DNA of 64,000 nucleotides from Planctomycetota bacterium. Lineage in GTDB: Bacteria > Planctomycetota > Planctomycetia > Planctomycetales > Planctomycetaceae. Below are positions 5,217 to 63,168 of the stretch, piece by piece. The stretch is taken from the NCBI GenBank assembly GCA_003388505.1, contig QQVO01000029.1, positions 1-64,000 of the forward strand, read 5' to 3'. The position numbers and the translations under genes were made by a program. The first letter of the stretch is position 1. Every line of letters begins with the position of its first letter. The notes under the pieces are model-generated. The model did no database searches. It was not told where the DNA came from and worked only from the letters and a program-made list of their open reading frames with translations.

Positions 5217-5586
5217 CTTACTTTTTTCCCGGAAGTCGTTGCAGTTGAGTCGAATTTCAGCGACCCGGCGAGCGGCGAGGCGTGAGCCCGCCGATTCGTC
5301 CTCCCACCAACAAGCTCGGATGGTCCGAGGCACTGCCTCGTTAGAGATCCTTTTCAGAATTGACGCATGGGTTGTTCGTATCCTTGAGTTGCGACTCGAA
5401 GCGCAGCGCTCCCCAGTCGGTCGCGGCGAAACGGGTGTATGAAACCATGTGACGTTTTTTGAAATGGACCACTGAGGCGCCGCAGGCACGAACGCCGGCC
5501 GGCGATCAACCGCATCCGGGTGAATTCCGGGCGGAACGGAGTTGCAGGAGCGGAACCTGGAAACCGGACGTTCAGCAGGAGGACTC
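5217..5586. other. Gene-free spacer upstream of kdsA
   Basis: No gene is supported in these 370 bp. At 5405-5432 there is a degraded reverse-strand copy of repeat family A (AGCGCTCCCC...GGTCGCGGCGAAAC; about 23 of 28 positions agree with the reverse complement of the copy at 48967-48994). Confidence 0.45.
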
Positions 5587-6420: not shown

Positions 6421-6536
6421 CCCCGTGCCCCCGGTTCCTCGAAGCGGCACGGGAAATCCGTCTGAGATCGGTTAGAATTGAAGACGTACATTCGTTCAAT
6501 TGTCTTTCCTTCGTCTTCAGTTCTGAGGAGCAACGT

Positions 6537-8198: not shown

Positions 8199-8246
8199 TT
8201 CTCAAGCCGTGCCTTCCGATCACATTCCGCTGAACTCCCGTTGCCG

Positions 8247-46600: not shown

Positions 46601-47175
46601 TCAGCGACGTCTACGCCGATTACCTCGCCATCGCCGCGCTCGCCCAGAACCCCTTCGCAGGAGGCGGACGCGGAGGCAACCCCCTCTCCATGCTGCTCGG
46701 CGGAGGCGGCGGGGACGACGCGCAGGCGATCGACGCCCCCCTGACGATCGGCATCGACCAGCAGACCAGCAACCTCATCGTCTCGGCCGACGAACCGCTG
46801 TTCCAGGAAATCAGGCAGCTCGTCGAATCGATCGATCAGGCGGCCCAACAGGCAAACCGCACGATCCGCGTCTACTCGTTACAGAACGCCAATGCGGCGA
46901 TCGTCCAGCAGACGCTCGGCGCGGTCGTGCCCCGCGTCCAGGTCAGCACCACCGGATCGCGTCCCACAACCGACCGGACGCCGCAACCGCAACCGCAGAT
47001 CCCGGACGGAAACCGGGGCGGGGACGACGCCAACGATCAGATGCGGCGCTTTTTCGAACAGCGGATGCGCGAGCGGTTCCAGCAGATGCAACAGCCGCAG
47101 CAATCCGGAGGAAACGACGATTCCGGGAGGCGCGGATTTGGTGGAGACCGCGGCCGGAGCCGTCGCGGCAACTGA
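43615..47175 (+). CDS. Giant secretin N-domain protein without a barrel domain
   Basis: The 1186-aa product starts with a signal peptide (about 5-31, ending APAQQ). Residues 45-200 are helical and resemble LTxxQ/CpxP-like repeats ([29 protein letters not shown]). From about 255 on, several N-type secretin domains follow (for example [60 protein letters not shown]), each with the ...TNxLxV... motif. A Pro/Glu/Asn-rich linker lies at about 750-830. The barrel-forming secretin core is missing. It opens the T2SS cluster, so it may build an extra periplasmic ring. GGAG at 43606-43609, five bases before a TTG at 43615, supports that start over ATG 43627. Confidence 0.75.
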
Positions 47176-47245: not shown

Positions 47246-48925
47246 ATGGAAATCGGCAACGTACTTGTCCGCCGCGGACTCGCCAGCACGCAGGATGTCG
47301 AATCCGCGCGCCTCGAGGCCAACGGCCGCCGCATCGATCAGATTCTGGTCGACCGCGGCGTCGTCACCGAAGAGGGCACGCTCCGCGCGCTCGCCGACGA
47401 ACTCGGCATGCGGTTCGTCGCCCTGACCGAAGACGATGTCGACCCCCAACTCCTCCGCCTCTTCCCCCCCGCCGCGATCTTCCGCCACGAAGCGATCCCG
47501 CTGTCGCGCGACGGCGACACCATCACCCTCGCCACCGCCGATCCGTTCGACCTCGAAGCAGTCGACGAACTGAGCAACGTCAGCGGCTGCCGCATCCAGC
47601 TCGTGCTGGCCTGCCGGGAAGAAATTTTGGGGCTCATCAAACAGGAACTCGGCGTCGGCGGCGACACCATCAACCAGCTTGTCGCCCAGCGCGCCGAAGC
47701 GGGCGTCGAACTGCTCGACGAAATCCCCGACGAACTGGGCGAACTGGCCGCCTCCGCCCAGGCGCCCTCCGTCATCCGACTCGTCAACGAACTGCTCGTC
47801 GAAGCCCTCGAACAGCGGGCGAGCGACGTGCACATCGAACCCCAGGAACGCGGACTGACGGTCCGCTTCCGTGTCGACGGCCTGCTCCGCGTCCAGCCCG
47901 TCCCGGCCGAGATCCACCAGTTCGCGTCTTCGATCATCACGCGACTGAAGATCATGGCCCGGCTCAACATCGCCGAGAAGCGTCTGCCGCAGGACGGCCG
48001 CATCAACGTCCGCGTCCAGGGCCGCGAGATCGACGTTCGCGTCTCGATCATCCCCATGCTCCACGGCGAAGGAATCGTGCTCAGGCTGCTCGACAAGGAG
48101 CGGATGGTCTTCAATCTGACCAACGTCGGCATGCCGGACGACGTCGCCGGCTCGTTCCACGAACTGATCGCGCTGCCCCACGGCATCGTGCTCGTCACCG
48201 GTCCGACCGGAAGCGGTAAAACGACGACCCTCTACAGCGCGCTCAACGAAATCAAAAGCCCCACCACGAAGATCATCACGATTGAGGATCCGGTTGAGTA
48301 TCACATGTCCGGCATCAGCCAGATTCACGTGCATACGAAGATCGGTCTCACTTTCGCCGCCGGACTCCGCTCGATCCTGCGTCACGATCCGGACGTCGTG
48401 CTCATCGGAGAAATCCGCGACGGGGAGACAGCCACCAGCGCCATTCAGGCGTCGCTCACCGGTCACCTCGTCTTCAGCACCCTGCACACCAACGACGCCC
48501 CCGGCGCGTTCACGCGACTGGTCGATATGGGCGTCGAACCCTATCTGGTCGCCAGCACCGTCGAAGGCGTTCTCGCGCAGCGGCTGGTGCGCGTGTTGTG
48601 TCCGGACTGCAAACAGCCCTACCAGCCCGACGACGCCGACCTCCCCGCCGATTTCGCCCGGCCCGTGGAAGAGCTGTGGCGATCCGTCGGTTGCCGGAAC
48701 TGCCGGGATGCCGGATTCACCGGCCGCTCCGGCGTGTTTGAACTGCTCGTCAACGACGACGCGATCCGCCACCTGTGCATCGAACAGGCCAGTTCGGGCG
48801 ACATCCGCAACCATGCGCTCAAGCACGGCATGCTCACCCTGCGTCAATGCGGCTATCGCATGGCCAGAGCAGGCCGCACCACGCTCGACGAAGTGCTCCG
48901 AGTTACGCGCGGCGATGTTAGCTAG
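47246..48925 (+). CDS. gspE: Type II secretion ATPase GspE
   Basis: GspE is the cytoplasmic hexameric ATPase that drives pseudopilus growth. The 559-aa protein has an N-terminal GspE/PilB domain (about 1-150, [20 protein letters not shown]), then Walker [17 protein letters not shown] (about 317-331), the Asp box [13 protein letters not shown] (TIEDPVEY), Walker [14 protein letters not shown] and His box [12 protein letters not shown]. The tetracysteine zinc motif, VLCPDC (about 451-456) and CRNC (about 484-487), is present as in GspE and PilB. It lies 70 bp after the N-domain protein gene. Confidence 0.95.
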
Positions 48926-49037: not shown

Positions 49038-50246
49038 ATGCCAGACTTCCAGTACATCGCCCGGGAAATCTCCGGCCGGCAGGTCACCGGCACGCTGGCG
49101 GCGTCTTCACAGCAGGACGCCCTCGGATTGCTCTCCGCGCAGCAGTTGTTTCCCATCAGCGTTGCCCCGGCGGAAGAACTGAAATCGCAATGGAAGCTCA
49201 GCGGCCGCAGGGTCCGCGCGCGGCAGAAGGCCGTCTTCTATTCGCAGCTTGCCGACCTCCTCAAATCGGGCGTCCCGCTGCTCAGGTCGCTCGAACTGCT
49301 CGAACAGCAGGCGACCAGCCCCGCGTTCGCAGCCGTTCTGCAGGACGTGCGCGAACAGGTCGCCGACGGAACCCGGCTGCACGACGCGCTTCGCAGGCAC
49401 CAGCGCGTGTTCGGAGACCTCGTGGTCAGCATGGTTCGGGCCGGCGAAGAGGGCGGCTTTCTGGAGGAAGTGCTCAAGCGGACCGCCGCGTTCACCGACC
49501 ATCAGGAAGACCTCAAGGGCCGCGTGCTCGGCGCGATGGTCTATCCGCTGTTTCTCATGATCTTCGGCACCGGAATCGTCGTCGTGCTGCTGATCAAGTT
49601 CGTCCCCAAGTTCGAGCCGATCTTCGAGCGCATGGCCGAGCGGAATCAGCTTCCCTGGGCCACCACGGCCCTGCTCGGCATGAGCGATTTCGCCCAGGCG
49701 TACTGGTGGCTGATCGCCCTCGCCCTTGCCCTCGGCGCGTGGGGATTGAATTACGCCGCACACACCGAAACGGGCCGCTGGCGGCTCGACACCATCCGCC
49801 TGCGGGCCTATGGCATCGGACGCATCATTGGCAGCCTCGCGGTCGCCCGCTTCTGCCGTGTTCTGGGAACGCTGCTGAGAAACGGCGTGCCGATCCTGCA
49901 GTCGCTGGGCATCGCCAAAGACGCCACCGGCAACGCCGTGCTCAGCAAGGCCATTGCCGACGCCAGCGACAACATCTCGGAAGGAAAATCACTCGCAAAG
50001 CCGCTGGGAGCCAGCGGCGAATTCCCGCCGGAAATCGTCGAAATGATCTCCGTCGGCGAGGAGGCAAACAACCTGGAAAACGTCCTGGTCGACATCGCCG
50101 ACAACCTGGAGCGGCGGACCGGACGGGAACTCGATCTGGCAGTCCGGCTGCTCGAACCGATCATGCTCGTCATCATGGCGGCCGTGGTTCTGTTCGTCGT
50201 CGTCGCCCTGCTGCTCCCCATTCTGCAAAGCTCGACAATCGCGTGA
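49038..50246 (+). CDS. gspF: Type II secretion inner-membrane platform protein GspF
   Basis: The 402-aa membrane protein anchors the pseudopilus machine and contacts GspE. The two homologous T2SSF domains are visible: QKAVFYSQLADLLKSGVPLL (about 63-82) and ARFCRVLGTLLRNGVPILQS (about 270-289), each followed by helices ending in GEEGGFLEEVL and GEEANNLENVL. Three long hydrophobic helices lie at about 170-190, 215-235 and 372-398. ATG 49038 begins MPDFQYIARE, the usual N-terminus. Confidence 0.93.
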   Translation: MPDFQYIAREISGRQVTGTLAASSQQDALGLLSAQQLFPISVAPAEELKSQWKLSGRRVRARQKAVFYSQLADLLKSGVPLLRSLELLEQQATSPAFAAVLQDVREQVADGTRLHDALRRHQRVFGDLVVSMVRAGEEGGFLEEVLKRTAAFTDHQEDLKGRVLGAMVYPLFLMIFGTGIVVVLLIKFVPKFEPIFERMAERNQLPWATTALLGMSDFAQAYWWLIALALALGAWGLNYAAHTETGRWRLDTIRLRAYGIGRIIGSLAVARFCRVLGTLLRNGVPILQSLGIAKDATGNAVLSKAIADASDNISEGKSLAKPLGASGEFPPEIVEMISVGEEANNLENVLVDIADNLERRTGRELDLAVRLLEPIMLVIMAAVVLFVVVALLLPILQSSTIA

Positions 50247-50250: not shown

Positions 50251-50382
50251 AAGTTGTCAGTCGTCAGGAATCAGTTGTCAGTGAAGAGCACAGCGCTAGA
50301 CTGTGAGAGAGACGACCGTTTACTGAAAACCGATCACTGGCAACTGACAACTGAAAACTGACAACCGAACACTGAAAACTTT
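50251..50382. repeat. Inverted array of a TCAGTTGTCAG word upstream of gspG
   Basis: AGTTGTCAGTCGTCAGGAATC and related words at 50251-50283 face reverse copies (CACTGGCAACTGACAACTG..., 50336-50382). The two blocks could pair across about 50 bases. It occupies the space just before gspG. Confidence 0.5.
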
Positions 50383-50401
50383 GAAGCCTACGGAGTTCAA
50401 G

Positions 50402-50863
50402 ATGTCCATCCCCCGGAAACAGACCCGCTCCCCCCGCGGCGGTTTCTCTCTGCTGGAACTGCTCATCGTGCTGGCCATCATCGGCGTCATTGCCGCGATG
50501 GTCGTGCCGCAACTGCTGGGGAGGCAAAAAGACGCTCAGATCAAGGCCACGCGGGCCAGCATTCACAATCTCGAACAGGCGCTCAAGCTCTACGCCGTCG
50601 ATCATGACGCCGAATTTCCCACCGAATCGGAAGGCGGTCTGAACGCCCTGCTGCAACCCAAGGACCGCGCCGGAAACGCCCAGAGCCCTTACCTGGAAAA
50701 AATTCCGCTCGACGCCTGGGGCAACGAAATCCATTACGAATACCCCAGCTCGAAGATCGTCGCGGTCGACAAGCCGGCCCTCTGGTCAAACGGCCCCGAC
50801 CGCCAGGACGACAATGGCTCCAATGACGACATCTCGAACTGGGCGGAACTGGAGTCACTGTAA
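50402..50863 (+). CDS. gspG: Major pseudopilin GspG
   Basis: GspG is the main subunit of the T2SS pseudopilus. The 153-aa prepilin has a 14-residue basic leader ending GG, then the N-methylated segment FSLLELLIVLAIIGVIAAMV with Glu5, cleaved after Gly and methylated by a prepilin peptidase not encoded here. The globular part includes LKLYAVDHDAEFPTESEGGL and the C-terminal KIPLDAWGNEIHYEYPS (usual DPWG) and DISNW blocks of GspG. A hairpin with a short T-tract lies 37 bp after the stop. Confidence 0.95.
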   Translation: MSIPRKQTRSPRGGFSLLELLIVLAIIGVIAAMVVPQLLGRQKDAQIKATRASIHNLEQALKLYAVDHDAEFPTESEGGLNALLQPKDRAGNAQSPYLEKIPLDAWGNEIHYEYPSSKIVAVDKPALWSNGPDRQDDNGSNDDISNWAELESL

Positions 50864-50942: not shown

Positions 50943-51584
50943 ATGCCGCACCTCAACCAACAACGCGCCACGCCCCGCACCGGCTTCACCCTCCTAGAAC
51001 TCGTGCTTGCGCTCTCGGTGCTGGCGATCCTGATCGGACTCACCTGGCCCTCCCTGATGCGGTTCGTCGGCGACCAGAGACTGCGGGACGACGTGGAACT
51101 CGTCCGCTCCCGCGCCGCCGCCGTCCGCTCGTCGGCGATCGCCGAGCGTCTCACCTTTCAATTCCGCTACGAACCGGGCGGAACACGCTACCTGATTCTG
51201 CCGTATGAACGGCCGCTCACCGGCCGGCAGGACGAAAACCTCGACGCAACTTCCGCCGGCTCGATCGACGACAAGCTCCGCGTCAGGGACTACGAACTCG
51301 ACGAAGGCAACCGGTTCAGCGCCGCCGCGCCGTCGCCGCTTGGCAGCACGTCGCAGCCGCCGCTGACCGAGCAGATCAGCCAGGACTGGCTCGCTCTCTT
51401 CGGCGGCGAGGCCACTCTCGCGCAGACAACCTGGTCAGAGGCGATCCTGTTCAAGCCCGATGGCTCGGCGACGGACACAGAATTCTTCGTCGTCGACGAC
51501 GATGGGCGGTATCAGCGAATCGCAGTCCGCGGTTTGACCGCGGCCGTGTCGTCCGGACCGGTGCAGCAGGAGGACCGGCGATGA
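50943..51584 (+). CDS. gspH: Minor pseudopilin GspH
   Basis: The 213-aa prepilin-like protein has a leader ending TG, then FTLLELVLALSVLAILIGL (Glu5 kept) and a globular domain. GspH is a minor subunit, here larger than most. The stop overlaps the ATG of gspI by 4 bp (ATGA), a tight translational coupling. Confidence 0.85.
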   Translation: MPHLNQQRATPRTGFTLLELVLALSVLAILIGLTWPSLMRFVGDQRLRDDVELVRSRAAAVRSSAIAERLTFQFRYEPGGTRYLILPYERPLTGRQDENLDATSAGSIDDKLRVRDYELDEGNRFSAAAPSPLGSTSQPPLTEQISQDWLALFGGEATLAQTTWSEAILFKPDGSATDTEFFVVDDDGRYQRIAVRGLTAAVSSGPVQQEDRR

Positions 51585-52015
51585 ACCGCAACCCTGTCTC
51601 CTGCGCCCCGCCAAACCCCCGCCGAAACGGCATCACGCTGCTGGAGGTCCTCATCGCGCTGGCGATCTTTCTCGGCGCCCTCGCCGTCATCGGCCAGATC
51701 GTAAGCACCGGCAGCCAGGCCGCCATGAGCGCGCAACTCAAGGCCGAGTCGGTCCGCCGCTGCGAGACCGTTCTCGCGGAGACGTTGAGCGGAGTGATCC
51801 CGCTCCAGAGCGCCAGCGGGACGTTCGAAGACGACCCGCAATGGTCCTGGACCGTCTCGGTTCAGGACGGCGCAGCCACCGACCTGCTCACTGTGGAGGC
51901 CGCGGTCTCCCGCAACGGAAACTCGGCGTCCGAATATCGTCTCACCCGCTGGGTCCGCGATCCGCAGGTCTTTCTGCAGTCGACCATCGACACCTCCACA
52001 GGAGGCAGCCGATGA
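51581..52015 (+). CDS. gspI: Minor pseudopilin GspI
   Basis: The 144-aa prepilin has a leader ending NG, then ITLLEVLIALAIFLGALAVI with Glu5. With GspJ and GspK it should form the pseudopilus tip. The stop codon overlaps the start of gspJ (ATGA at 52012-52015). Confidence 0.85.
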   Translation: MNRNPVSCAPPNPRRNGITLLEVLIALAIFLGALAVIGQIVSTGSQAAMSAQLKAESVRRCETVLAETLSGVIPLQSASGTFEDDPQWSWTVSVQDGAATDLLTVEAAVSRNGNSASEYRLTRWVRDPQVFLQSTIDTSTGGSR

Positions 52016-52992
52016 AACCTCGTCGTCGCACGAATCACAGAACACGGGTGGTCGGGGCTGGACTGTTTAGCGGCGACCCGCAGGGGAGCGCTCCGCGTCT
52101 CCGCAATCCACAAGGGTTCACCCTCGTCGAACTCATCGCGGCCCTCGCGATCAGTCTGCTCCTGGTCACCGCCGTGATCGCGTCGCTCGACATCTACTTG
52201 CGACTCACCACAGCCGGAGAGGAATCGGTCGAACGCCAGCAGATCGCGCGGGCGGTCCTCAGCCAAATGACGCGCGACATGGAGTCGATCGTCTTTCGCG
52301 CGCCGGACGAAACCACCGCAGAAGACGCCCGATCCGAGGAGACCGATGACTTCGCGGCGGAACCGGTCGTGGAGGTCCAGGATCCCGACGCCGCCTACAC
52401 CTCCGGCAGCCTCGGGCTGGTAGGTGATTCACAGTCCCTGGTGCTGCACGTTTCGCGGCCGTCGAAGGAACTCAGCTATTCGTCCTTCCAGCAGGCGACT
52501 GGCACGGTCTCCCGCACCAGCGATCTGATGTCGGTGTCGTGGTTTCAGGCGAGTCCCGGTTCGGCCGGACTGGCGGGCGAAGTCGGCAACCTCGCAGCCG
52601 CCGCGCAGCCGAATAACGCCGCGCGCAGCTCGTCAACCGCAGAGTTCACCGGAGGCTTGGCGCGGCTGGAGGGGGATCGGATGGCCATCCAGTACGCCGA
52701 CGTCGCTTCCGACGTGCAGGCCCTGGCCGGCGCGGCGGAAGTCCTCGCGCCGGAGATCGTTTCGGTCCAATTCCGGTACTTCGACGGACAGAACTGGGTC
52801 GCCGTCTGGGACAGCACCGCCTCCGGGGCGCTTCCCCAGGCCGTGGAAGTCACGCTCGGATTTCGCAACCAGACGCAGAGGCGGCAGGACAGCATTCACG
52901 TCGTCTCCGACGGCATCGAAATCGGCGAGTGGGTCCGCCACGTCATCCACGTGCCGCTCTCCCGACCTTACTCGTCTGAAATGGCCTTCTGA
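52012..52992 (+). CDS. gspJ: Minor pseudopilin GspJ with a repeat-derived leader
   Basis: The 326-aa prepilin has an unusually long leader of about 35 residues, then FTLVELIAALAISLLLVTAV with Glu5 and a long globular part. Within the leader, bases 52065-52092 are a copy of dispersed repeat family A, coding GLFSGDPQGSAPR. The globular part (EPVVEVQDPDAAYTSG..., WVRHVIHVPLSRPY) is GspJ-like. The prepilin peptidase must cut after ...NPQG before FTL. The gene is translationally coupled to gspI. Confidence 0.85.
   Translation: MKPRRRTNHRTRVVGAGLFSGDPQGSAPRLRNPQGFTLVELIAALAISLLLVTAVIASLDIYLRLTTAGEESVERQQIARAVLSQMTRDMESIVFRAPDETTAEDARSEETDDFAAEPVVEVQDPDAAYTSGSLGLVGDSQSLVLHVSRPSKELSYSSFQQATGTVSRTSDLMSVSWFQASPGSAGLAGEVGNLAAAAQPNNAARSSSTAEFTGGLARLEGDRMAIQYADVASDVQALAGAAEVLAPEIVSVQFRYFDGQNWVAVWDSTASGALPQAVEVTLGFRNQTQRRQDSIHVVSDGIEIGEWVRHVIHVPLSRPYSSEMAF
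52065..52092 (+). repeat. Dispersed repeat family A, copy 4, inside gspJ
   Basis: GTTTAGCGGCGACCCGCAGG then GGAGCGCT, one base different from 48967-48994. It is in frame in the leader of gspJ. Confidence 0.75.
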
Positions 52993-54681
52993 TTGAGCGC
53001 GCCCGTGCATTTTCGCAACGTGCAGATTCGGCAGTCGAAGACGTCGCATGCGACGGCGCGCAGAGGGACCGCGCTCATCACAGTCCTCGTCGTGATTCTG
53101 CTCCTCTCGCTGGCCGCCTACACGTTCACCGAGAAGATGATCCTGGAGAGCGAGGCATCGGAGTTTGCAGCGCGGCAGGCGCAGGCGCGGGCCAGTGCAG
53201 ACTCCGGCGTCGATTACGTCGCCGCCCTGCTGGCCGACATCGACGCCGCGTCCGATCCGATCAACATCTATCACGACCCGTCGCTGTTCGCCGCAATGCC
53301 GGTGCACGACCCGCAGGCCGACCGGGGGATCGGCATGTTCACCCTCGTGGCGCCGGTGGTCACCGCCGGGTCAACGCAGACCGTGCGGGCCGGACTGATC
53401 GACGAATCGGGCAAGCTCAACGTCAACGCCGTGCTCTCGTTCGATCTCGAAGACGACGAGGCCCGCGAGCTGTTCCTGGGCATTCCCGGCATGACCGAAC
53501 AAATCGCCGACGGCATCCTGGACTGGGTCGACGAAGACACCGAGCGCCGCCAGTACGGCGCCGAAGACGATTTCTATTCGACTCTCAGTCCCCCCTACAC
53601 CGCCCGCAACAGTCCGCTCGAGTCGCTGGACGAGTTGCTGCTCGTCAACGGTATGACGCCCGCACTTCTGTACGGCGAAGATGCCAACCGCAACGGCATC
53701 CTCGACCCCAACGAGAACGACGGACCCCTCTCGCTGCCCATGGACAACCAGGATGGGCAGCTCGATCTCGGCTGCGCCGGCTACCTCACGGTCTACAGCC
53801 GAGAGTCGAACCTGCAATCCAACGGCGCGGAGCGGATCAACGTCAACGACAGTTCGCTCGTCGATCTCTACGACGCGCTGGAAGAGCAACTGGGAGAGGA
53901 CGAGGCGCAGTTTATCGTCGCCTACCGGATGTACGGCGCGACCAACGTCGAACCGCTCGACGGGACCGGGCTCTCCTCCACCCCCGACTCGACCGGCGAC
54001 CAGCAGACCGACGACGCCCTCATGGACCTCGCCGGCCGACTGGCGAAAGCGCTGGGCGGAGGCAACACCGATCCGATCATGCGCGGCGGAATGGACCTCT
54101 CGCGGGGCCCCCGGCAGGAAATTGACTCACTCTACGAACTGATCGGGGCCGAAGTCGTCGCCGAGATCGACGGCAGCGACGAAACCCTCGCCAGCCCCTG
54201 GCAGAACGATTCCGGCGCCTTGGCCGGATCGCTGCCGTTGCTCTTCGACGTCGCGTCCACCATCGGGACGTCAACCATCGACGGTCGCATCAACGTCAAC
54301 CAGGCCCGCAAGGAGACTCTCCTCGGCATCCCGAACATGCCGAGCGATCTGGCCGACGCCATTGCGAATTCCCCCCTGATCGGTCCCGACGGCCAGGCCC
54401 TCTCTGGACAGTTCGAGGAACGGCAAACCACCGCCTGGCTGCTGACCCGCGGCCTGGCGGATGTCACCACCATGCGCCAAATCGACAGGTTTATCACGGC
54501 CCGTGGCGAAGTCTTCACCGTTCAGGTGCTCGGCCATTTCGACGTCAAGGGTCCGGTGGCGCGGATTGAAGCAGTCGTCGATGCGGTGGAAGACCCGCCG
54601 CAGATCATCGCCCGCAGAAACCTCTCGGAACTCGGCCCGGGCTACGACCTCACGCCGCTCGTCCCGGCGGGCGGACCATGA
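52993..54681 (+). CDS. gspK: Minor pseudopilin GspK
   Basis: GspK caps the pseudopilus tip with GspI and GspJ. The 562-aa product has a leader ending RRG, then TALITVLVVILLLSLAAYTF, which lacks Glu5 as is normal for GspK, and the QAQARASADSGVDYVAALL segment. The large globular part includes GLIDESGKLNVNAVL and GILDWVDEDTE typical of GspK and a Ca-binding-like loop, DANRNGILDPNEN. It is longer than most GspK proteins (about 300-350 aa). A TTG directly after the gspJ stop is the start; a GTG lies at 53005. Confidence 0.88.
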   Translation: MSAPVHFRNVQIRQSKTSHATARRGTALITVLVVILLLSLAAYTFTEKMILESEASEFAARQAQARASADSGVDYVAALLADIDAASDPINIYHDPSLFAAMPVHDPQADRGIGMFTLVAPVVTAGSTQTVRAGLIDESGKLNVNAVLSFDLEDDEARELFLGIPGMTEQIADGILDWVDEDTERRQYGAEDDFYSTLSPPYTARNSPLESLDELLLVNGMTPALLYGEDANRNGILDPNENDGPLSLPMDNQDGQLDLGCAGYLTVYSRESNLQSNGAERINVNDSSLVDLYDALEEQLGEDEAQFIVAYRMYGATNVEPLDGTGLSSTPDSTGDQQTDDALMDLAGRLAKALGGGNTDPIMRGGMDLSRGPRQEIDSLYELIGAEVVAEIDGSDETLASPWQNDSGALAGSLPLLFDVASTIGTSTIDGRINVNQARKETLLGIPNMPSDLADAIANSPLIGPDGQALSGQFEERQTTAWLLTRGLADVTTMRQIDRFITARGEVFTVQVLGHFDVKGPVARIEAVVDAVEDPPQIIARRNLSELGPGYDLTPLVPAGGP

Positions 54682-54951: not shown

Positions 54952-56436
54952 ATGCCCGAAATCGTCGCGATCGACTGGGAAGCGAAATCGGCGCGCTTCG
55001 TCTGCGCAAAGATTGTGCGCGACAAGCTCGAATCGTGGCGGACCTTCCAGGCCGATCTCCCGGAAGAGATCGCATCCGCCGCTGACGCCGCCGCGACCGG
55101 AAAATGGCTGCGGGACACTTTCCGGCAACACGGCGCCGATCCGCAACAGGCGATCGTCGTCCTGCCGCGCGAATCGGTCGTCATGCGGCGGCTCGACCTG
55201 CCCGACGTGCCCGATCACGAATTGCCTGCGATGGCCCGCCTCCAGGCGGCGACCCGCGCGTCGACACCCGTCGATCAACTCGCCCTCGACTACCTCCCGC
55301 TTCCCAGACACGAGCATCGCCCCGGGCAATCAGTGCTCGTCTTCTCCTGCGAGGCAAGCCGTCTCAAACGACTGCGCGAATCCTTCAAAGCCGCCGAAGT
55401 CGACCTGCTCGGATGCACCACCAGTGCCACCACCGTCGGCGAAGTCGTCGCCCGCGCCGACGCGTCGGTGCGGGCCAACCTCCACATCCCCACGCTTGTG
55501 GTCTACCAGCGCGGATCGCGCGTGGAACTGTCGATCTATTTCGACCAGGGACACCTGATCTTCTCGCACGGCCTCCGGTTGCCCTCCGGCGACGCGGCCA
55601 ATCACGTGCAACCGCTGAAATCCGAACTCTCGCGGTCGATCGTCGCCCTGGGTCAGGTCCACGAACACGTTGTCATCGAACGGGCGATCGTCGTTCAGGA
55701 GGACGAACGCGATTCCCAGATCGTCCAGATGCTCGAAGAGTCCTTCCCCGGACGTGTCGAATGCATCGATCCCGATCAGGCCGCCCGCGCAGCCGGCAGG
55801 ACCGCGGAGACATCCGGCGCACTCTCCGCCGCAGCGCTCGGGGCAATCCTGGCCGAAACCTCTCCCACGCTCCCCAGGATCGATTTTCTCCGGGCCCGCA
55901 AACCACAGCCCCCGCGCGATGAACGCAAACTTCGCCTCGGAGCCGCCGCCGCAGCGGCGCTCCTCGTCTTTGCTGTCGGCGGCTGGTTCTATTACTCCGC
56001 CCTTGTCGAGCGCGATCAGCAGATCACCGAACTCCAGCAGAGAGAGTCCGATCTGAACAAACTGCTGGAGCGAAACGACGCGGCGCTGCGCACCGCCGAA
56101 GCGATCGGCAACTGGGAAAACGGCGACGTCCCCCCCGTCGAGACCCTCGCCGGACTCCAGGCCCTGCTCACAGGCACCGACCGGCTCTACTTTCAATCCC
56201 TGAAGTTCTCTCCCGGCACCCGCGACGCCGCAGCACAGATTCGCGGCAGCGGCTTCGCCCGAACACGCAGGGACTTTGAAGAACTGGAACAGAGGCTCGC
56301 CGACCAGGGCTACCGCGTCCGTTCACACACGCCGGCCACCAGCAACCGGGATCCCGACTATCCCGTGCTGTTCGAACTCGACATCGACGTTCTCCGCCCC
56401 AAGTCCGGCGACGCCCCCGAAGCGAACGCCACCTGA
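54952..56436 (+). CDS. gspL: GspL-like PilM + PilN fusion protein
   Basis: The 494-aa protein has an actin/HSP70-like cytoplasmic part (about 1-325, beginning IVAIDWEAKSARFVCAKI, with LVVYQRGSRVELSIYFDQG), as in PilM and the cytoplasmic domain of GspL. A membrane helix follows (about 327-352, GAAAAAALLVFAVGGWFYYS), then a coiled coil (LQQRESDLNKLLERNDAALR) and a small domain like PilN. In type IV pili these two parts are separate proteins. It should connect GspE in the cytoplasm to the periplasmic proteins. The gene follows gspK after 270 bp of hairpins. Confidence 0.8.
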   Translation: MPEIVAIDWEAKSARFVCAKIVRDKLESWRTFQADLPEEIASAADAAATGKWLRDTFRQHGADPQQAIVVLPRESVVMRRLDLPDVPDHELPAMARLQAATRASTPVDQLALDYLPLPRHEHRPGQSVLVFSCEASRLKRLRESFKAAEVDLLGCTTSATTVGEVVARADASVRANLHIPTLVVYQRGSRVELSIYFDQGHLIFSHGLRLPSGDAANHVQPLKSELSRSIVALGQVHEHVVIERAIVVQEDERDSQIVQMLEESFPGRVECIDPDQAARAAGRTAETSGALSAAALGAILAETSPTLPRIDFLRARKPQPPRDERKLRLGAAAAAALLVFAVGGWFYYSALVERDQQITELQQRESDLNKLLERNDAALRTAEAIGNWENGDVPPVETLAGLQALLTGTDRLYFQSLKFSPGTRDAAAQIRGSGFARTRRDFEELEQRLADQGYRVRSHTPATSNRDPDYPVLFELDIDVLRPKSGDAPEANAT

Positions 56437-56463
56437 TCGCCGAACGGCCGAATCAACCTCATC

Positions 56464-58185
56464 ATGTCGAAACGAGAAAAAATCCTGGCAGCCGGCCTCG
56501 CGGCCGTGATCGCGATCTTCGTGATCGGCCCGGCCGTCATGAGCGCCGTCCTCTCGCCGCTGCGCGAGCGGGACAACCGAATCAATACGCTCAAAACCAG
56601 CGTCGCGAAACTCGACGACGCGGAGTTCGCCCTGCTCGCCGCTAAGCGGGACGTCAATCGCTGGCGCGAAATGAGCCTGCCCCCCGACCCGCTCGACGCG
56701 CAGCGCGTCTACTACCAGTGGCTCAACGACGTCACCCTCCTCGCCGGTTGGCAGGAAGTCGAGATGACCCTCGGCACTGCCTCTCCGAGGCAAGGCGGAT
56801 ACACGACCATCCCCGTCACCATTGAAGCCGAGGCGACCCTCGACCAGATCGACCGCTTCATCAGGTTTCTCGACTCCACGCGACTGCTGCAGCGCGTCAC
56901 CCGCCTCGACATCGAAAGCCCCTACCCGGACGGCAATCCGCCGATGCACGTCGTCATCGGTCTGGAAGGAGTCGGACTCCAGGAGGCAACCCCCCGTTCG
57001 CGCCTCTTCCCCATCAGCCGACTGCAAAGCAATCTCGCTGACGACGACCAGCAGCTTAGGCTTGATGGCAGCGACGGGTTCCCCGAAGAGACTCCGTTTC
57101 GCATTCGCATCGATCAGGAACTGCTCCGCGTCGACGACGTCGACGGCGACACCTGGCGCGTCACGCGAGGCGTCGATCACACCGAGGCCGCCCCGCACGA
57201 GGCCGACTCGGTCGTGGAACTCACGCCGCAGATCGAGGACGACGCAACGTCAACCGCCGAGACCGAACTGCTCGTCGAGCGCATCTTCGTCAAAGCCGAC
57301 AACCGCACACCCGCCGGCGTCGAGATCGCCGCGCTCGACGCCCCGTCCGCCATGCGGGGCCAGCCCTGGTCGGCCGAACTCTCCCTCGCCAACTGGGACT
57401 CCCGTCGCCCCGTCAAATACGCGATCGACGGGGACGTGCCCCCCGGCCTCACCCTCGATGCCGACACCGGTCGCCTCGAATGGACTCCGCCCGCCGATGC
57501 GGAACTCGGCTACTACGAGCCCGAAGTCACGGCCCTCTCCGCCGACGGCCGGGAAACGATCGCCACCGGTTCGGTCGAAATCGAACTCCGCAGGCCGAAC
57601 AGCCCTCCGACTCTGGTTCTCCCGGAAACCGTCGACGTCTGGCTCGGGCAGGAACTGGTCCTCACCCCCGAAGTCAAAGACCCGGACCTCGCCGAAGAAG
57701 AGTTCCTCTTCGAGATCGAGGGGGATCTGCCCGAAGACGCATCCTTCGACGAACAGACCGGAACACTGACCTGGACTCCCCCCGTCTCGACCGATATCGG
57801 AGACATCGTCGTCACCATCTCCGTCAGCGACGACGGCCGGCCGCGCGAGACCGATTCGCAGGACGTCGTCCTCAAACTTCAGGACGACCCCGCTCTCTAC
57901 ACCTACCTGTTGGGCGGAATCATCCAGGGCGCCGACCGGCGGGTCTGGTTCCGCAACCGGGCCGCCGAGGAAAGCGAGGCCCGTATCGTCCTGTCTGAAG
58001 GGGACGAGTGGACCCTGGCCAACCTCGAAATGACGATCGAAACCGTCCGCATCGACTCCATCGACGTCGCCATCGACGGTCGCCTGTACCGCCTGGAGAA
58101 CGGAGAGAACCTCCGGCAACTTCAGCCGGTCGCTGAAAACCCGGCCGACTCAAGCTCCTCGACCACCGCACGTTCCGGCGAGTAA
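56464..58185 (+). CDS. PilO/GspM-like + Ig-like + PilP/GspC-like fusion protein
   Basis: The 573-aa protein has an inner-membrane helix (about 8-30), a coil, and a ferredoxin-like PilO/GspM domain (about 65-175; YTTIPVTIEAEATLDQIDRF). Next comes a beta-rich module with FRIRIDQELLRVDDVDGDTW and TRGVDHTEAAPHEADSVVEL, resembling repeats in phage and surface proteins. Then there are two Ig-like modules with PPGLTLDADTGRLEWTPPAD and PEDASFDEQTGTLTWTPPV (about 285-470). The C-terminus (about 478-545; YTYLLGGIIQGADRRVWF, DSIDVAIDGRLYRLENGENL) looks like the HR domain of PilP/GspC, which contacts the secretin. This is the bridge from inner membrane to secretin in one chain. Confidence 0.65.
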   Translation: MSKREKILAAGLAAVIAIFVIGPAVMSAVLSPLRERDNRINTLKTSVAKLDDAEFALLAAKRDVNRWREMSLPPDPLDAQRVYYQWLNDVTLLAGWQEVEMTLGTASPRQGGYTTIPVTIEAEATLDQIDRFIRFLDSTRLLQRVTRLDIESPYPDGNPPMHVVIGLEGVGLQEATPRSRLFPISRLQSNLADDDQQLRLDGSDGFPEETPFRIRIDQELLRVDDVDGDTWRVTRGVDHTEAAPHEADSVVELTPQIEDDATSTAETELLVERIFVKADNRTPAGVEIAALDAPSAMRGQPWSAELSLANWDSRRPVKYAIDGDVPPGLTLDADTGRLEWTPPADAELGYYEPEVTALSADGRETIATGSVEIELRRPNSPPTLVLPETVDVWLGQELVLTPEVKDPDLAEEEFLFEIEGDLPEDASFDEQTGTLTWTPPVSTDIGDIVVTISVSDDGRPRETDSQDVVLKLQDDPALYTYLLGGIIQGADRRVWFRNRAAEESEARIVLSEGDEWTLANLEMTIETVRIDSIDVAIDGRLYRLENGENLRQLQPVAENPADSSSSTTARSGE

Positions 58186-58269
58186 CGTGGACCCCGCCGC
58201 TCCGCGTAAATGCCATCGCCGATCGAATTCGACTGCGGAGTCTGGGCAAACTTTGCCGATGTTAACGGT

Positions 58270-58307
58270 TGTACGGCCTGATTGGCGCGACGGTGGCGGA
58301 CCGTACA
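58270..58307. promoter_or_regulatory. Inverted repeat upstream of the secretin gene
   Basis: TGTACGG (58270-58276) and CCGTACA (58301-58307) are perfect inverted repeats 24 bp apart, within 160 bp upstream of the secretin ATG. They may be an operator. Confidence 0.25.
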
Positions 58308-58345
58308 CTCCGCCTGGAGGAACCGAGCGCAGCACGGACGCAACC

Positions 58346-61300
58346 ATGCTCGACCCAACCAGATTCACAACAGCGGTCGCCCGCGGTCTGTCAATCGCAG
58401 CGGCCGTCTTCCTGCTTGCGCAGCCGCACAGCCTGTCCGCCGAACAACCGCGCTACGCCGCCGGCACGGCGGAAATCACCGCCACAGACGCCGCAGACGA
58501 ACCGCTGCTCAGGCTCAACTACCTCCCTACAAGCTGGGAGCGCGTCCTGCACGACCTGGCGGACAAGACCGGATCGACTCTCGTCCTGCACGACGTTCCC
58601 CGCGGCCGCTTCCAGCGCACCGATCGCCGCAAATACAACCGCAGCGAGGCGATCCGCATCCTCAATCAGGAACTCGAACCCCTCGGATTTCGCATCCTCG
58701 CGAAGGACCAGTTTCTGACGGTCATCGAAATCGATCGCCGCAACGAGGAGTACCCCCGCCGCGTCTACCAGCCGACGCCGCAGGAACCCATCCCCCGCGC
58801 CTACGAACCTGCAACCGCCTCCGCCGACCGCCGACCGCCGGCCACACAGCCGAGCGACAACCGTCGTCCCTCGCAGCGCCGCTCCGATCGCATCGTCGAC
58901 AGTTCCGTCCGCCCGGCGGCCTATGAGGAAGCCCAGCATCAGGAAACCGTCGAAGCCCGCTCTGAAACAGCGGAGCGCTCAACGGTAACACTCGATACCG
59001 ATCAACCGGCTGCCGACGTCGCACGGAAAATCTACGGCGCCTTCGGAAAACGCACCGAATTCGTGGAAGCCGGTCCGCAAGGTCTGCCGGCGTTCCATGT
59101 CTACCGGGGATCGTCCGATCCGGGCGAAGCCGAGTCGGCAACGCAGACGAAGGACGTCTGGTTCACCGTCGAACTCGATCAGTCACGGAATCAACTCCAC
59201 CTGCACGGCGCGGATTCGGTCACCGACAGCCTGGTCAAGCTGGTCCACCTGCTCGATGTCGCCCCGGCCCCCGGCGCCGCAACCACGCGCGTCATTCCCG
59301 ACGCCGGAAACGCCGGCAAGATCGCCCGCCAACTCGAACCGCAACTCGCCCAGCTTCAGGACGCCCGCAAAGAAGCCGCGCAGAATGAGCCGGCCGCCCC
59401 GGACGACGAAACCGCTCCGGACGCGCCCGCGCAGAGCGACCCCCTCGATCCGTCACAATTGGGCGACATGCCCCTCCCGCAGTTGATTGGAAACCTGCGG
59501 GGAGACGTGACCGTCGAGGCGCTTCAGGATCTCGATCTCCTGATTCTGCGCGGCAACGAAGCAGACGTCGAAGCCGTCATGGAAGTCATCCGCGCCATTG
59601 AAGAACTGGCCATCGGTTCGACTCCGGAGATCCATCTGCTCAACCTGAGATACGTCGACTCGGAATCACTCGCCGCGCTTCTCAACGATGTCTACGAACG
59701 ACTCAGCCAACTCAACACCGATTCCGCCGCCGCCGTGCGGCAGACGAAGCCGGTGAACGTCGTCCCCGTGGGACGGCCGAACGCGATTCTGATCATCGCC
59801 CCCGGCAGCGTGATGCCCTCCGTGTTGGACCTCGCCGAGCAACTCGACCAGCCCGTCACGCCCGGCAGCGAAGTCGAGGTGTTCCCGCTCAAGAGTGCGG
59901 TCTCCTCGCAGGTCGCCGCCCTCATCGAAGAGTTCTATGAGGATCGTCCCGGACTGGCCACGCAGGTGCGCGTCGTCGACGACGTCCGGACGAACTCGGT
60001 CGTGGTCAACGCCAGCCCCGCGGAACTCGAAGAGGTCGCACGGCTGGTTCGCCAGATCGATCGCGACCGCGCGCGGTCCGTCAATCAGGTCAAGCTCGTC
60101 CCGCTGGAATACGCCCTCGCCGACGAACTCGCCGAGTTCCTCACGCTGGCGATCCAGAGCATCCTCAACCCGCAGCAGGCCCAGGGGCAGTTGGGACAGT
60201 TCGGCGGTGCAGGGGCCCAGGGATCGGAAGATCTCCAGGAACCGAAATCGGTCGTCCTCGAATTCCTCACCACGGATGGTTCGGTCCAGCGCCTGCTCCG
60301 TTCCGGACTGCTCGCAGACGTCCGCATCACGGCCGACCTGCGGACCAACCGGGTCATGATTACCGCGCCGGAAGCCAGCATGCCGCTGTTCGTTGAACTC
60401 GTCAAGGTGCTCGACCAGCCCACCAACGCCGTGGCCGACATCAAGGTGCACACGCTCGAAAACGCCGACGCGACCGCGGTCGCCGAACTGCTGCTCACCC
60501 TCTTTCCCGAACCCGACGAAGACGAGCCGGGCATCCAGGTCGCCGGTTCGGGCGACGCGGGCGCCAGCCTCATTCCGCTCCGCGTCTCGGTCGACACCCG
60601 AACCAACAGCCTCGTGATTGTCGCCAGCCGCGACGTCATGGCCGTCGTGGAAGCGATCCTCTACCGGCTCGACGCCGGAGACCTGAGAAACCGGCGGATC
60701 GAGGTGCTCCGGCTCCGCAACAACCCGGCGCAAAGCATCGCAGACGCCATCAACGTCTTCCTGCAGTCGCAGCGCGACCTGCTGCTGCTCGATCCCGACC
60801 TCATCAGCTCGACCGAGCTGCTGCAACAGGAAGTCATCGTCACCCCCGAGCCTCTCAGCAACAACCTCATCATCAGCGCCACGCCCCGCTACTTCGACCA
60901 GATTCGCGATCTCGCCCTCGAACTCGACCGCGAACCGGAGCAGGTCGTCATTCAGGCGCTGCTGGTCGAGGTCACGCTCGACGACACCGACGAACTCGGC
61001 ATGGAACTCGGGTTCCAGGATCCCGTGCTCTTCGACCGCAGCCTGCTCACAGACGTCGTGACCATCACCGAAACAATCGCCGGCGTCGATACCACCCGCG
61101 TCGTGTCGGTCACAGGCGCGCCCGGATTCGGCTTCAACAACCAACCGTTCGGCAACAACGTGATCGGGAACCCCGGCCGCGTCGGAACGCAGGGGCTCAG
61201 CAACTTTGCCCTCGGCCGCACCAACGACGACCTCGGCTTCGGCGGACTCGTCCTCTCCGCCAGTTCCGATTCCGTCAGCGTGCTCGTCCGCGCTCTCGCC

Positions 61301-62128
61301 TCCCGCCGAGACGTGCGCGTCCTCTCGCGTCCGCAGGTCACCGCCCTGGACAATCAGATCGCTCAGGTTCAGGTCGGACAGCAGGTGCCGATCGTCGACG
61401 GCGTCAACATCACCGCCCAGGGCATCGCCAATCCGAACATCATTCAGGATGAGGCCGGCATCATCCTCACCGTCACTCCCCGAATCAGCCCCGACGGGCA
61501 GATCGTCATGGAGGTCGTCGCGGAGAAGAGCGCCTTCCTCGGCGACGGCGTGCCGATCTTCACCGACACCGACGGCGCCGTCATCACCTCGCCCATCAAG
61601 GACATCACCACCGCCCTCACCTCGGTCAAGGTGCCCGACGGACAGACGATCGTGATCGGCGGCATGATCACCAAAACCGAAGACAACGATCACCGCAAAG
61701 TGCCCTACCTGGGCGACATCCCCCTCATCGGCAGCCTGTTCCGCTACGACTCTTCGCAGCACCGCCGCACGGAATTGCTCATCTTCCTCACCCCGCGAAT
61801 CGTCCGCACCGATGCCGATATGGAACTGATCAAGCACGTCGAGTTCGAGCGGATGCACGCCTTCGAGGACGAGGTCGAAAAAATCCACGGACCGATCTTC
61901 GGGATTCCGTCCGCCCAGGGTGGGTTGCCCGCCGCCTATCCCGGCGCCATCAATCCGCCCGCGCCCGGTTCGATGAGACTGCCGACCGGTCCCGCCATTC
62001 CCGAAGTCCCCGTGCCTCCGGCGCCGGAAGTCGACGAGACACAGCCGCGCGTCCCGCCCACCGTACCCGATTCGGATCGCGAGTCCTCACAGGAACCCGC
62101 CGGTCCCGGAGTCCGTCGCCTGCCCTAG
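58346..62128 (+). CDS. gspD: Secretin GspD/PilQ with extra N-domains
   Basis: The 1260-aa product forms the outer-membrane pore. After a signal peptide (about 1-32, ending SLSA) comes an STN/N0-like domain (about 52-110, WERVLHDLADKTGSTLVLHD). A Pro/Arg/Ala-rich linker follows, then several N-domains (for example RTNSVVVNASPAELEEVARL, RTNRVMITAPEASMPLFVEL, RTNSLVIVASRDVMAVVEAI) and the secretin core (about 865-1155, VVIQALLVEVTLDDTDELGM ... VPYLGDIPLIGSLFRYDSS ... LLIFLTPRIV). A Pro-rich tail ends the protein. Typical GspD has about 650-750 aa, so the periplasmic part is about twice as long. ATG 58346 begins the signal peptide. Confidence 0.93.
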   Translation: MLDPTRFTTAVARGLSIAAAVFLLAQPHSLSAEQPRYAAGTAEITATDAADEPLLRLNYLPTSWERVLHDLADKTGSTLVLHDVPRGRFQRTDRRKYNRSEAIRILNQELEPLGFRILAKDQFLTVIEIDRRNEEYPRRVYQPTPQEPIPRAYEPATASADRRPPATQPSDNRRPSQRRSDRIVDSSVRPAAYEEAQHQETVEARSETAERSTVTLDTDQPAADVARKIYGAFGKRTEFVEAGPQGLPAFHVYRGSSDPGEAESATQTKDVWFTVELDQSRNQLHLHGADSVTDSLVKLVHLLDVAPAPGAATTRVIPDAGNAGKIARQLEPQLAQLQDARKEAAQNEPAAPDDETAPDAPAQSDPLDPSQLGDMPLPQLIGNLRGDVTVEALQDLDLLILRGNEADVEAVMEVIRAIEELAIGSTPEIHLLNLRYVDSESLAALLNDVYERLSQLNTDSAAAVRQTKPVNVVPVGRPNAILIIAPGSVMPSVLDLAEQLDQPVTPGSEVEVFPLKSAVSSQVAALIEEFYEDRPGLATQVRVVDDVRTNSVVVNASPAELEEVARLVRQIDRDRARSVNQVKLVPLEYALADELAEFLTLAIQSILNPQQAQGQLGQFGGAGAQGSEDLQEPKSVVLEFLTTDGSVQRLLRSGLLADVRITADLRTNRVMITAPEASMPLFVELVKVLDQPTNAVADIKVHTLENADATAVAELLLTLFPEPDEDEPGIQVAGSGDAGASLIPLRVSVDTRTNSLVIVASRDVMAVVEAILYRLDAGDLRNRRIEVLRLRNNPAQSIADAINVFLQSQRDLLLLDPDLISSTELLQQEVIVTPEPLSNNLIISATPRYFDQIRDLALELDREPEQVVIQALLVEVTLDDTDELGMELGFQDPVLFDRSLLTDVVTITETIAGVDTTRVVSVTGAPGFGFNNQPFGNNVIGNPGRVGTQGLSNFALGRTNDDLGFGGLVLSASSDSVSVLVRALASRRDVRVLSRPQVTALDNQIAQVQVGQQVPIVDGVNITAQGIANPNIIQDEAGIILTVTPRISPDGQIVMEVVAEKSAFLGDGVPIFTDTDGAVITSPIKDITTALTSVKVPDGQTIVIGGMITKTEDNDHRKVPYLGDIPLIGSLFRYDSSQHRRTELLIFLTPRIVRTDADMELIKHVEFERMHAFEDEVEKIHGPIFGIPSAQGGLPAAYPGAINPPAPGSMRLPTGPAIPEVPVPPAPEVDETQPRVPPTVPDSDRESSQEPAGPGVRRLP

Positions 62129-62319
62129 GACATCTGCGCCGCGAATTCGCCGGCAGCACCCCGTAATGCTGATTCAATCCAGGTTCTCCCTATCAACCAC
62201 TCCGCCGGCAGGCAGGACTTCATCACACAACTCCGCGCCTCCGTGGTAAATATCTCGGGTTGCGCGTGCCGCTGTGTCACCGCATTCAAGTCTCCGTCCG
62301 CAGAAGGGACGAACGACTC

Positions 62320-63168
62320 ATGAGCATTCGCTTGTTCTCACTGCTCACTGTCCTGATTGTTCCGCTCATGGGCGGATGTCAGTCGCTCGATCTCATTTCG
62401 TTCTCCGACGACGAGCCGCAGATCCCGGCCGCTACCGACGTCAATCCCGTGCGGGAGATCATCTGCATGTGGGAGGCGGCGGAAGGGCTCGGCCTCGACG
62501 GAAAGCCCGCTCGGGGATTCGCGGGACAGATCCTCTTCTTCACCGCAGCGCATCCGCAGCCGGTCCGAGCCGACGGGGACGTCCGGATCCTCTTGTATGA
62601 CAAACAGGGACTGGCGGAGGACGATCCGCATCCGTTCAAGCAGTACGAATTCTCCAGCGAAGTCTGGGACGCCTTCCTGCGGGATACAAACCTGGGCGCA
62701 GCGCACCACGTCTTTATTCCCGACCCCCGGCCGGGGAACTACTACGAAGAATGCGCAATACGCGTTGTCTTCACCCCGAAATCCGGGCTGCCCGTCTATT
62801 CCAAAACGGCCATGGTCGTGCTCCCCGGCCGCAAGCGGCCGGAGGAGACGCGCACCGCGGAATCGGCCGTCGAGACGGCGATGCGTTCCGCCGCGCAACA
62901 CGTCGAAACGTCTCCTCCCCGCGATCTGCTCTCGCTCAAGGTCTCCGCCGATCCGATGCAACCTCGCCGCGGCGCCGCTCGCATCAATGAACTCCGCCGC
63001 ACCGCGGATCAAATGATGCAGGGACTCCAGCCCGATGCCGATGAAAACCCGGCAGGCCAAACCGCGCCGGAATCGGCCTCCCGGCCGGAGCCGACCCGGC
63101 CCCGCTATCGACTCACCGGAGCCGCCGACGAATCCACCCAGCGCGGCCTCCGGCCGCAACCAATGTAG
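62320..63168 (+). CDS. Lipoprotein downstream of the secretin
   Basis: The 282-aa product has a signal with lipobox PLMGGCQSLDL, so it is lipid-anchored. The mature part has VREIICMWEAAEGLGLDGKP and AGQILFFTAAHPQPVRADGD beta-rich segments, plus a Pro/Glu-rich tail. I recognise no named family. Its position right after the secretin would suit a pilotin-like or accessory role, but this is only context. The last codon and stop (ATG TAG) belong to a REP-like palindrome. Confidence 0.6.
   Translation: MSIRLFSLLTVLIVPLMGGCQSLDLISFSDDEPQIPAATDVNPVREIICMWEAAEGLGLDGKPARGFAGQILFFTAAHPQPVRADGDVRILLYDKQGLAEDDPHPFKQYEFSSEVWDAFLRDTNLGAAHHVFIPDPRPGNYYEECAIRVVFTPKSGLPVYSKTAMVVLPGRKRPEETRTAESAVETAMRSAAQHVETSPPRDLLSLKVSADPMQPRRGAARINELRRTADQMMQGLQPDADENPAGQTAPESASRPEPTRPRYRLTGAADESTQRGLRPQPM

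Follow-up and report, generated by a model that had tools for sequence, protein, structure and literature searches.

A GspM-GspC fusion with a modular spacer in a probable Xps-type type II secretion cluster of a planctomycete

We analysed a stretch of 64,000 nucleotides (hereafter the window) from a Planctomycetota bacterium, on contig QQVO01000029.1 (C33 in our numbering). The genome measures 6.78 Mb, and by GspE its nearest named relatives are Planctomicrobium and other Planctomycetaceae. The window encodes a type II secretion system (T2SS) cluster. It comprises, all on the forward strand, a channel-less secretin-like gene, gspE, gspF, gspG, gspH, gspI, gspJ, gspK, gspL, a gspM-gspC fusion, gspD and a putative lipoprotein gene. 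We concentrated on the three genes that follow gspK, which are open, co-oriented and encode 494 residues (54952-56436, protein 1), 573 residues (56464-58185, protein 2) and a secretin (protein 3) whose open reading frame (ORF) runs to 62128. With a probability of about 0.8, their products form the part of an Xps-type T2SS that spans the envelope, with GspM and GspC united in one protein. Their features are as follows.

54952..56436, forward strand: gspL, with a PilM-like cytoplasmic domain, a transmembrane (TM) helix at about residues 329-347 and a PilN/GspL-type periplasmic domain
56464..58185, forward strand: gspM-gspC fusion gene (573 residues), with a single TM helix at about residues 7-25
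56464..57006, forward strand: GspM/PilO-type part of the fusion, residues 1-181 (PilO and T2SSM_b matches in homologues; PDB PilO 3jc8)
57007..57234, forward strand: phage-tail-type beta-domain (PTD), about residues 182-257, spacer module 1 (matches to 8rk3_b, phrog_1101 and 8vjh)
57319..57885, forward strand: pair of Ig-like domains (He_PIG/cadherin-like) spanning residues 286-474, modules 2 and 3 of the spacer (Pfam He_PIG, 53.7 bits; structure comparison)
57889..58143, forward strand: HR domain of the GspC/PilP type, residues 476-560 (predicted model; GspC HR 3oss_C)
58346..62128, forward strand: gspD secretin, with six Secretin_N stretches and a channel domain (Pfam, NCBIfam; start set by eye)

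Profile matches and a predicted structure identify protein 2 as a GspM-GspC fusion with a single TM helix, in which a beta-sandwich spacer links a GspM/PilO-type domain to an HR domain at the C-terminus. The model, built with 28 homologues, has a mean pLDDT of 84.6 and a pTM of 0.43. In its residues 1-181, the TM helix is joined by a long helix and a ferredoxin-like part. The TM helix, coiled coil and ferredoxin-like periplasmic domain of GspM are thus all present, and the protein differs from GspM and PilO in being extended C-terminally by the spacer and the HR domain. The alignment of the family (A1) used 29 of 30 rows, L036 being dropped for an internal TGA. Pfam PilO matches 8 of these 29 proteins (best E 3.5e-5) and T2SSM_b 4, while the family profile matches PDB PilO 3jc8 (E 0.0054). 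The window's own protein has an NCBIfam match to XpsM at E 0.014 only. When 15 reference proteins were ranked with the M profile, three GspM came on top with very weak scores (3.8, 2.2 and -0.4 bits; the next at -0.7). The E-values of this ranking and of the TM/tail comparison refer to libraries of 15 and 8 sequences, respectively. The fusion is conserved over its full length, in a single alignment that starts no later than residue 3 and ends no earlier than residue 545, in 58 of 100 genomes of the order (the window's own included), a conservation that, judged from these alignments, is far beyond chance.

The HR domain (residues 476-560, pLDDT 89) was folded alone, as a 91-residue piece, because a Foldseek search with the whole fusion was filled by cadherin-like and beta-sandwich chains, and the VIA structure comparison mostly by Ig-type rows. 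The best VIA row for the isolated domain is E. coli GspC (3oss_C; Z 8.0, r.m.s.d. 2.4, 63 aligned residues of a 65-residue chain), but the aligner carries the warning that models without a clear relative can also reach a top Z of 7 to 8. The next rows (Z 5.9-7.2) are four PilP entries, one GspB (4wfw, Z 6.7) and two chains of type IV pilus (T4P) complexes, 3jc8_Pa and 4av2_M, which we take to be PilP. Unrelated folds come after these first eight rows, from Z 4.4 downward. We retained the assignment despite the warning because these eight rows are all GspC, PilP, GspB or T4P-complex chains. Foldseek returned the same families with weak E-values (best 0.037). In the ranking of the 15 reference proteins with the HR profile, four GspC/N-type proteins came on top (12.6-7.0 bits), followed by HofP (2.2 bits). 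By predicted fold and by rank, the domain is an HR domain closest to that of GspC, without a strong sequence match. It shares the C-terminal fold of E. coli GspC (3oss), whereas it has neither a TM helix of its own nor a folded region after it, and is placed behind GspM. An N-terminal TM helix of GspC on a separate chain was not found in the cluster. As the fusion has only one TM helix, GspC's own anchor is gone.

Some results weigh against this reading of protein 2. In the window's own protein, Pfam PilO and T2SSM_b both fail to match the GspM part, and Pfam T2SSC and PilP fail to match the HR domain. Neither of the latter two models matches six further relatives (four of them short fusions), and the A2 profile gave no usable match among PDB sequences. 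Pfam matches within the HR region are weak and mixed, the commonest family being T2SSB (5 of the 29 homologues, best E 0.029). This frequency of T2SSB, together with the position of GspB 4wfw in the structure comparison, would fit an HR domain that is GspB-like, i.e. an anchoring, accessory domain in a system where GspC was simply lost. We regard this as most unlikely, because GspC is the top structural row, E. coli GspB comes close to last among the 15 reference proteins, and the HR gene lies between M and the secretin, like XpsC, where the genes are separate. The first-pass annotation, made from the letters of the window, had described protein 2 as a PilO/GspM, Ig-like and PilP/GspC-like fusion. 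The Pfam matches in homologues and the structure comparison agree with it, and a PilO/PilP-like fold was indeed recovered.

The same annotation had left unnamed the phage-tail-like domain at about residues 182-257. It resembles chain 8rk3_b of the JBD30 baseplate (Z 12.1, r.m.s.d. 2.0, 77 aligned residues within model residues 89-257) and the PDB minor tail protein 8vjh (E 1.9e-10), and 23 of the 29 homologues match phrog_1101, a PHROG tail protein family. With the two Ig-like domains, it makes up the spacer of the window's class, M-PTD-Ig-Ig-HR, which accounts for 44 of 73 rows (35 distinct genes) and has 286-298 residues between M and HR. Other rows are M-Ig-HR (6 rows, 131-141 residues) and M-HR (14 rows, 30-113 residues, the longer ones possibly with unrecognised domains), with single cases of PTD-HR (113), PTD-Ig-HR (200) and PTD-PTD-Ig-Ig-HR (362), and six rows with M only. 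The spacer thus ranges from 30 to 362 residues over all classes. Homologues are 28-35% identical to the window's protein 2. That the length stays constant in a class although identity is only about 30% points to a length constraint, and changes by whole domains suggest a modular strut. A simple co-variation between the lengths of spacer and secretin was considered and rejected: in the eight loci with a D frame, D has 1278-1467 residues for spacers of 35-362. In these loci secretin length does not track spacer length, which gives no help to a simple ruler model and counts against our reading.

Ig and phage-tail domains frequently bind sugars or proteins. Hence, these domains might take the place of the 2P/PDZ region of GspC and serve to bind substrates, instead of bridging a distance. 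In GspC, the 2P region is C-terminal to HR, whereas the tail and Ig domains precede it. Furthermore, the spacer is short or lacks recognised domains in some relatives (the 14 M-HR rows), and in the window's class its length is kept in spite of the divergence of the sequences. We find substrate binding possible but doubtful on these grounds, even if the variable 2P region of GspC is considered a possible substrate site (PMC11981180; this and the other papers are cited from excerpts).

Protein 1 is a GspL by its architecture, an actin-like domain, a TM helix and a ferredoxin-like domain in one chain, with the periplasmic half resting on weak matches. Pfam PilM_2 matches residues 44-149 (E 1.4e-3) and GspL_C residues 329-460 (E 1.9e-4), both below the Pfam cut-offs, and a whole-genome PilM_2 search at E 0.001 did not have protein 1 among the matches listed. 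The profile of 19 homologues matches PDB PilM 2ych (E 8.3e-14, profile positions 44-199). Among these homologues, 15 match PilM_2, three T2SSL, two PilN and one GspL_C. The single TM helix (about residues 329-347) is followed by the periplasmic domain with the GspL_C match. The L profile ranked the 15 reference proteins in the order HofN, Comamonas GspM, Comamonas GspL, E. coli GspM and E. coli GspL, all with at most 15 bits, which shows a sequence relation of the PilN/GspM/GspL type and nothing further. An NCBIfam match of GspL to an anti-sigma factor (E 1.8e-4, far below the cut-off) was taken as chance. The description of protein 1 as a PilM+PilN (GspL-like) fusion was borne out by the PilM_2, 2ych, GspL_C and PilN matches, including a PilN-like domain past residue 352, although this part rests on weak matches. 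The fusion itself is not new, because GspL is normally built in this way: PilM-like and PilN-like parts in one chain are its usual make-up, and their homology has been stated (PMC4471445).

The first-pass annotation had highlighted a T4P gene order within a T2SS cluster and proposed a T2SS/T4P hybrid machine. Neither claim was supported. The window has the Xps order with M and C joined, since the order E-F-G-H-I-J-K-L-M-C-D is published for the Xps cluster of Xanthomonas (PMC11981180), whose transcription units are E-F and G-to-N(C)-D (PMC2585010), and is also found on a plasmid of Comamonas odontotermitis with a 153-residue C-like protein (Pfam T2SSC E 0.0014, below the cut-off). In E. coli K-12, the order is gspC-D-E-F-G-H-I-J-K-L-M, and hofM-N-O-P-Q lies at a separate place. 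Gene order, component set and the presence of an HR-bearing C between M and the secretin are common to the window and Xps-type T2SS. However, M and C are separate chains in the latter, each with its own TM helix in Xanthomonas (PMC11981180), Ig or tail domains are undescribed there, and no secretin-like gene is annotated before gspE on the Comamonas plasmid. The PilMNOPQ genes of type IVa pili have the corresponding domains in the same order, whereas in the window M/N and O/P are fused, a T2SS pseudopilin set adjoins and T2SS profiles score higher.

The hybrid, a T4P-type platform (PilMNOPQ) driving T2SS pseudopilins, has several observations in its favour. L-M-C-D matches PilM-N-O-P-Q domain by domain, as seen from published homologies (PMC4471445) and from hofMNOPQ of E. 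coli. The PilM half of protein 1 is recognised by PilM models over T2SSL (15 versus 3 of 19), protein 2 by PilO over T2SSM_b (8 versus 4 of 29), and the L profile gives the PilN-type protein HofN a higher rank than any GspL. Two PilB-like paralogues from the same genome lie closer in the GspE tree than E. coli GspE does, but support is modest and the branches are long. Long branches meet there among T4P and T2SS references, only one of which is Xps-like, and the tree assigns the group to neither of these sets. Yet, the PilM+PilN fusion defines GspL, the gene order is that of Xps-type T2SS and the HR domain is nearest to GspC. For GspE, GspF, GspG and GspD, the lead of the NCBIfam T2SS profiles over the highest-scoring profile of T4P or competence type ranges from 68 to 140 bits, although only GspG passes its cut-off (GspE has 611 of 630 bits, GspF 369 of 424 and GspD 343.5 of 351.35). 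The matches above cut-off to PilM_2 and PilT are on other contigs of the genome. PilT was not found in or near the cluster: pilT_fam is above cut-off on C3 and C11, and on the window's contig it matches GspE alone, below cut-off. PilM, PilN, PilO and PilP as separate chains, as in the T4P machine, were not found in the cluster either. We rejected the hybrid on these grounds and hold it to be very unlikely. The real surprise of the locus is the M-C fusion with its spacer; the GspL fusion and the gene order were already known. We found no description of a GspM-GspC fusion in open PubMed Central papers, judged by title or start of the abstract, and a search there for GspC and GspM of planctomycete type II secretion systems returned no paper.

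Elsewhere in the same genome (locus L180, G000:C1:46000-62000), a 708-residue frame with a strong PilM match is followed by two large frames of 512 and 792 residues, at about 2468-8630. They are perhaps a separate T4P-like assembly cluster.

The genes upstream of gspL had been annotated as gspE-F-G-H-I-J-K, which ORFs and matches to Pfam and NCBIfam profiles confirm.

43615..47175, forward strand: channel-less secretin-like protein, a probable accessory part and the first gene of the cluster (six Pfam Secretin_N stretches, no Secretin domain; partial cover by the NCBIfam GspD profile)
47246..48925, forward strand: gspE ATPase (MshEN and T2SSE domains; GspE 611 versus PilB 532 bits)
49038..50246, forward strand: gspF (Pfam; GspF 369 versus PilC 274 bits)
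50381..50863, forward strand: gspG major pseudopilin (TIGR01710, 105.8 bits, above the cut-off of 88.85)
50943..51584, forward strand: gspH-like minor pseudopilin (N_methyl; GspH E 0.019 on a longer frame; position)
51581..52015, forward strand: gspI-like minor pseudopilin (Pfam and NCBIfam matches below cut-off; position)
52009..52992, forward strand: gspJ-like minor pseudopilin (T2SSJ, 30.9 bits, above the cut-off of 28; NCBIfam)
52993..54681, forward strand: gspK minor pseudopilin (T2SSK_1st, 64.9 bits, above cut-off)

All four minor pseudopilins are thus present, K and J with Pfam matches above cut-off, H and I by weak matches, N_methyl and position. Peptidase_A24 (prepilin peptidase) matches occur elsewhere in the genome, and one of them may serve this system. 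Downstream of gspD, the gene at 62260-63168 encodes a lipoprotein-like protein, with a Cys after a signal-like stretch (seen by eye). It has no Pfam match, relatives are found downstream of gspD in several loci, and from its sequence it is a possible pilotin or accessory part.

Protein 3 is a secretin, as the first-pass annotation had it: Pfam Secretin is above cut-off and the GspD profile outscores PilQ (343.5 versus 203.6 bits). Its start is more likely the ATG at 58346, just before a signal-like stretch seen by eye, than the GTG at 58187. The protein encoded at 43615-47175 has 1186 residues, six Secretin_N stretches, an N0-like stretch (by eye) and no secretin channel, and it may, given these domains, form an extra periplasmic ring. 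Such a protein lies upstream of gspE in many Planctomycetales and Pirellulales loci. In L123, the open frame of its relative extends to 2845 residues. Short spacers (30-34 residues) coincide with giant channel-less proteins (1728-2845 residues; L123, L134, L135 and L138), all in one clade.

These proteins raise the question of what the HR domain holds. Its partner could be the N0-like stretch in the channel-less protein, and so an extra periplasmic ring, instead of the secretin, which is a further point against our reading. The six Secretin_N stretches, the absence of a channel, the N0-like stretch and the frequent position before gspE fit such a partner. However, no channel-less protein was seen before gspE in six Gemmataceae-type loci that do have the long M protein (L102, L103, L112, L113, L124 and L160), and the known partner of HR is the secretin N0 (PMC4471445, PMC6882859). 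We consider the channel-less partner rather improbable.

In some other bacteria, the secretin itself is apparently split over two adjacent frames, one that has N0 and Secretin_N domains but no channel, followed by one with the Pfam Secretin channel.

L155:13811-16629: split secretin
L147:18921-21552: split secretin
L148:19024-21552: split secretin
L153: split secretin, by profile

The hosts of the first three are a Hydrogenedentota, a Verrucomicrobiota and an unclassified bacterium, and further such loci have similar match patterns. The frames were read from stop to stop; they overlap in L155 and L148, and two end at the end of the locus.

We then turned to the distribution of the fusion, for which the 80 named loci are the best 80 retained from a GspE scan. 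Among these, 43 have a GspM frame: 15 are fused to HR, three very weakly so, five are long without a recognised HR, one (L156) is cut by the end of the locus, and 19 have HR in a separate gene. The order is M, HR, secretin in all 19 unfused loci, which come from Phycisphaerae, Sedimentisphaerales, Verrucomicrobiota, Victivallales, Sumerlaeota, Hydrogenedentota or unclassified relatives. Twenty further loci, all fused, had been chosen for having the protein. A draw of 147 genomes across the phylum gave 20 with a match to the M profile and 13 to the HR profile; 11 had both in one frame and two had HR without M. Two more genomes, G191 and G221, show an M frame that ends in an HR-like tail (27.8 and 37.1 bits); in G129, M and HR are separate genes. 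From these matches, the fusion is typical of Planctomycetia and present in a few other Planctomycetota.

The GspE tree places all 19 unfused loci in one clade of 26 rows (SH-aLRT 100) without any fused locus, and the fused loci that it includes in the neighbouring clade of 61 rows (SH-aLRT 88), which suits one origin by joining of adjacent genes. The tree leaves out L039, L053, L099 and L116 (rows too short), the genomes of the phylum draw outside the class, and nine of the 20 further loci, which have no gspE frame (L040-L045, L048, L050 and L056). By profile, HR had no match on the long M protein of L103, L112, L113, L124 and L160. A profile-profile comparison recovered it on the tails of L102, L103 and L113 (probability 95.8), L102 being a very weak fusion (E 0.2-0.3). 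In L112, L124 and L160 it returned only a 43-column piece (probability 38.6), and a fusion is likely there from the sequences. The E-values of the HR profile lean favourable for separate genes, because the profile was rebuilt in four rounds on the same loci; before rebuilding, it matched three of the 19 separate genes (3e-4 to 4e-3).

In eight genomes, the 19.5 kb around the fusion gene contain no T2SS gene but L (blastp with the window's proteins), and the best E and D matches are at least 40 kb away. In seven of them, L lies directly 5' of the fusion gene. The two genes therefore remain paired when the rest of the cluster disperses, as expected of direct partners. At E 0.001, the window's own genome has one M match and one HR match among those listed, and no second GspM or GspC among the candidates scored (22 of 37 and 36 of 49, respectively). 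Some genomes seem to have a second T2SS, as G033, G042 and G052 show second D and E matches, and likewise G017 (L053), where the M-HR fusion of the second system is short and contains neither Ig nor tail domains.

The fusion is most likely, judging from its domains, a covalent strut from the GspL/GspM platform to the secretin. From what is known of these families, GspL would hold the ATPase GspE at the membrane and pair with the GspM domain, the spacer would span the periplasm, and HR would sit on the secretin N0. Such a strut would replace the membrane anchor of GspC and set a GspM:GspC ratio of 1:1, so that a hexameric platform would present six HR domains to the secretin ring. Its spacer would be a replaceable ruler, made of a short linker, of one Ig domain, or of a tail domain and Ig repeats. 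The ratio of PulC to PulM measured in Klebsiella is 2.13:0.99 (PMC6882859), and this also weighs against the proposed strut: compared with about 2:1, the forced 1:1 is either a true difference or the sign of a fusion cleaved in vivo. The 2025 Xanthomonas model has six C-L-M trimers (PMC11981180). More tentatively, and with some doubt, we suggest a machine with an exchangeable covalent ruler of Ig and phage-tail domains, only six HR clamps and a second, channel-less ring of N-domains, the secretin of related Verrucomicrobiota, Sumerlaeota and Hydrogenedentota being made as two genes, one for the N-module and one for the channel.

The question at stake is what connects a secretin of 15-fold symmetry to the six-fold inner platform of the T2SS, and how many GspC this takes. 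A natural fusion imposes one GspC per GspM unless it is cut, which argues that six clamps can suffice. For structural work, it also provides a platform held together covalently, and the range of spacer lengths found in nature lends itself to asking whether the distance between platform and secretin is fixed. Exchangeable spacers between the inner GspM and the GspC clamp could thus reveal how the two halves of the machine are tied together.

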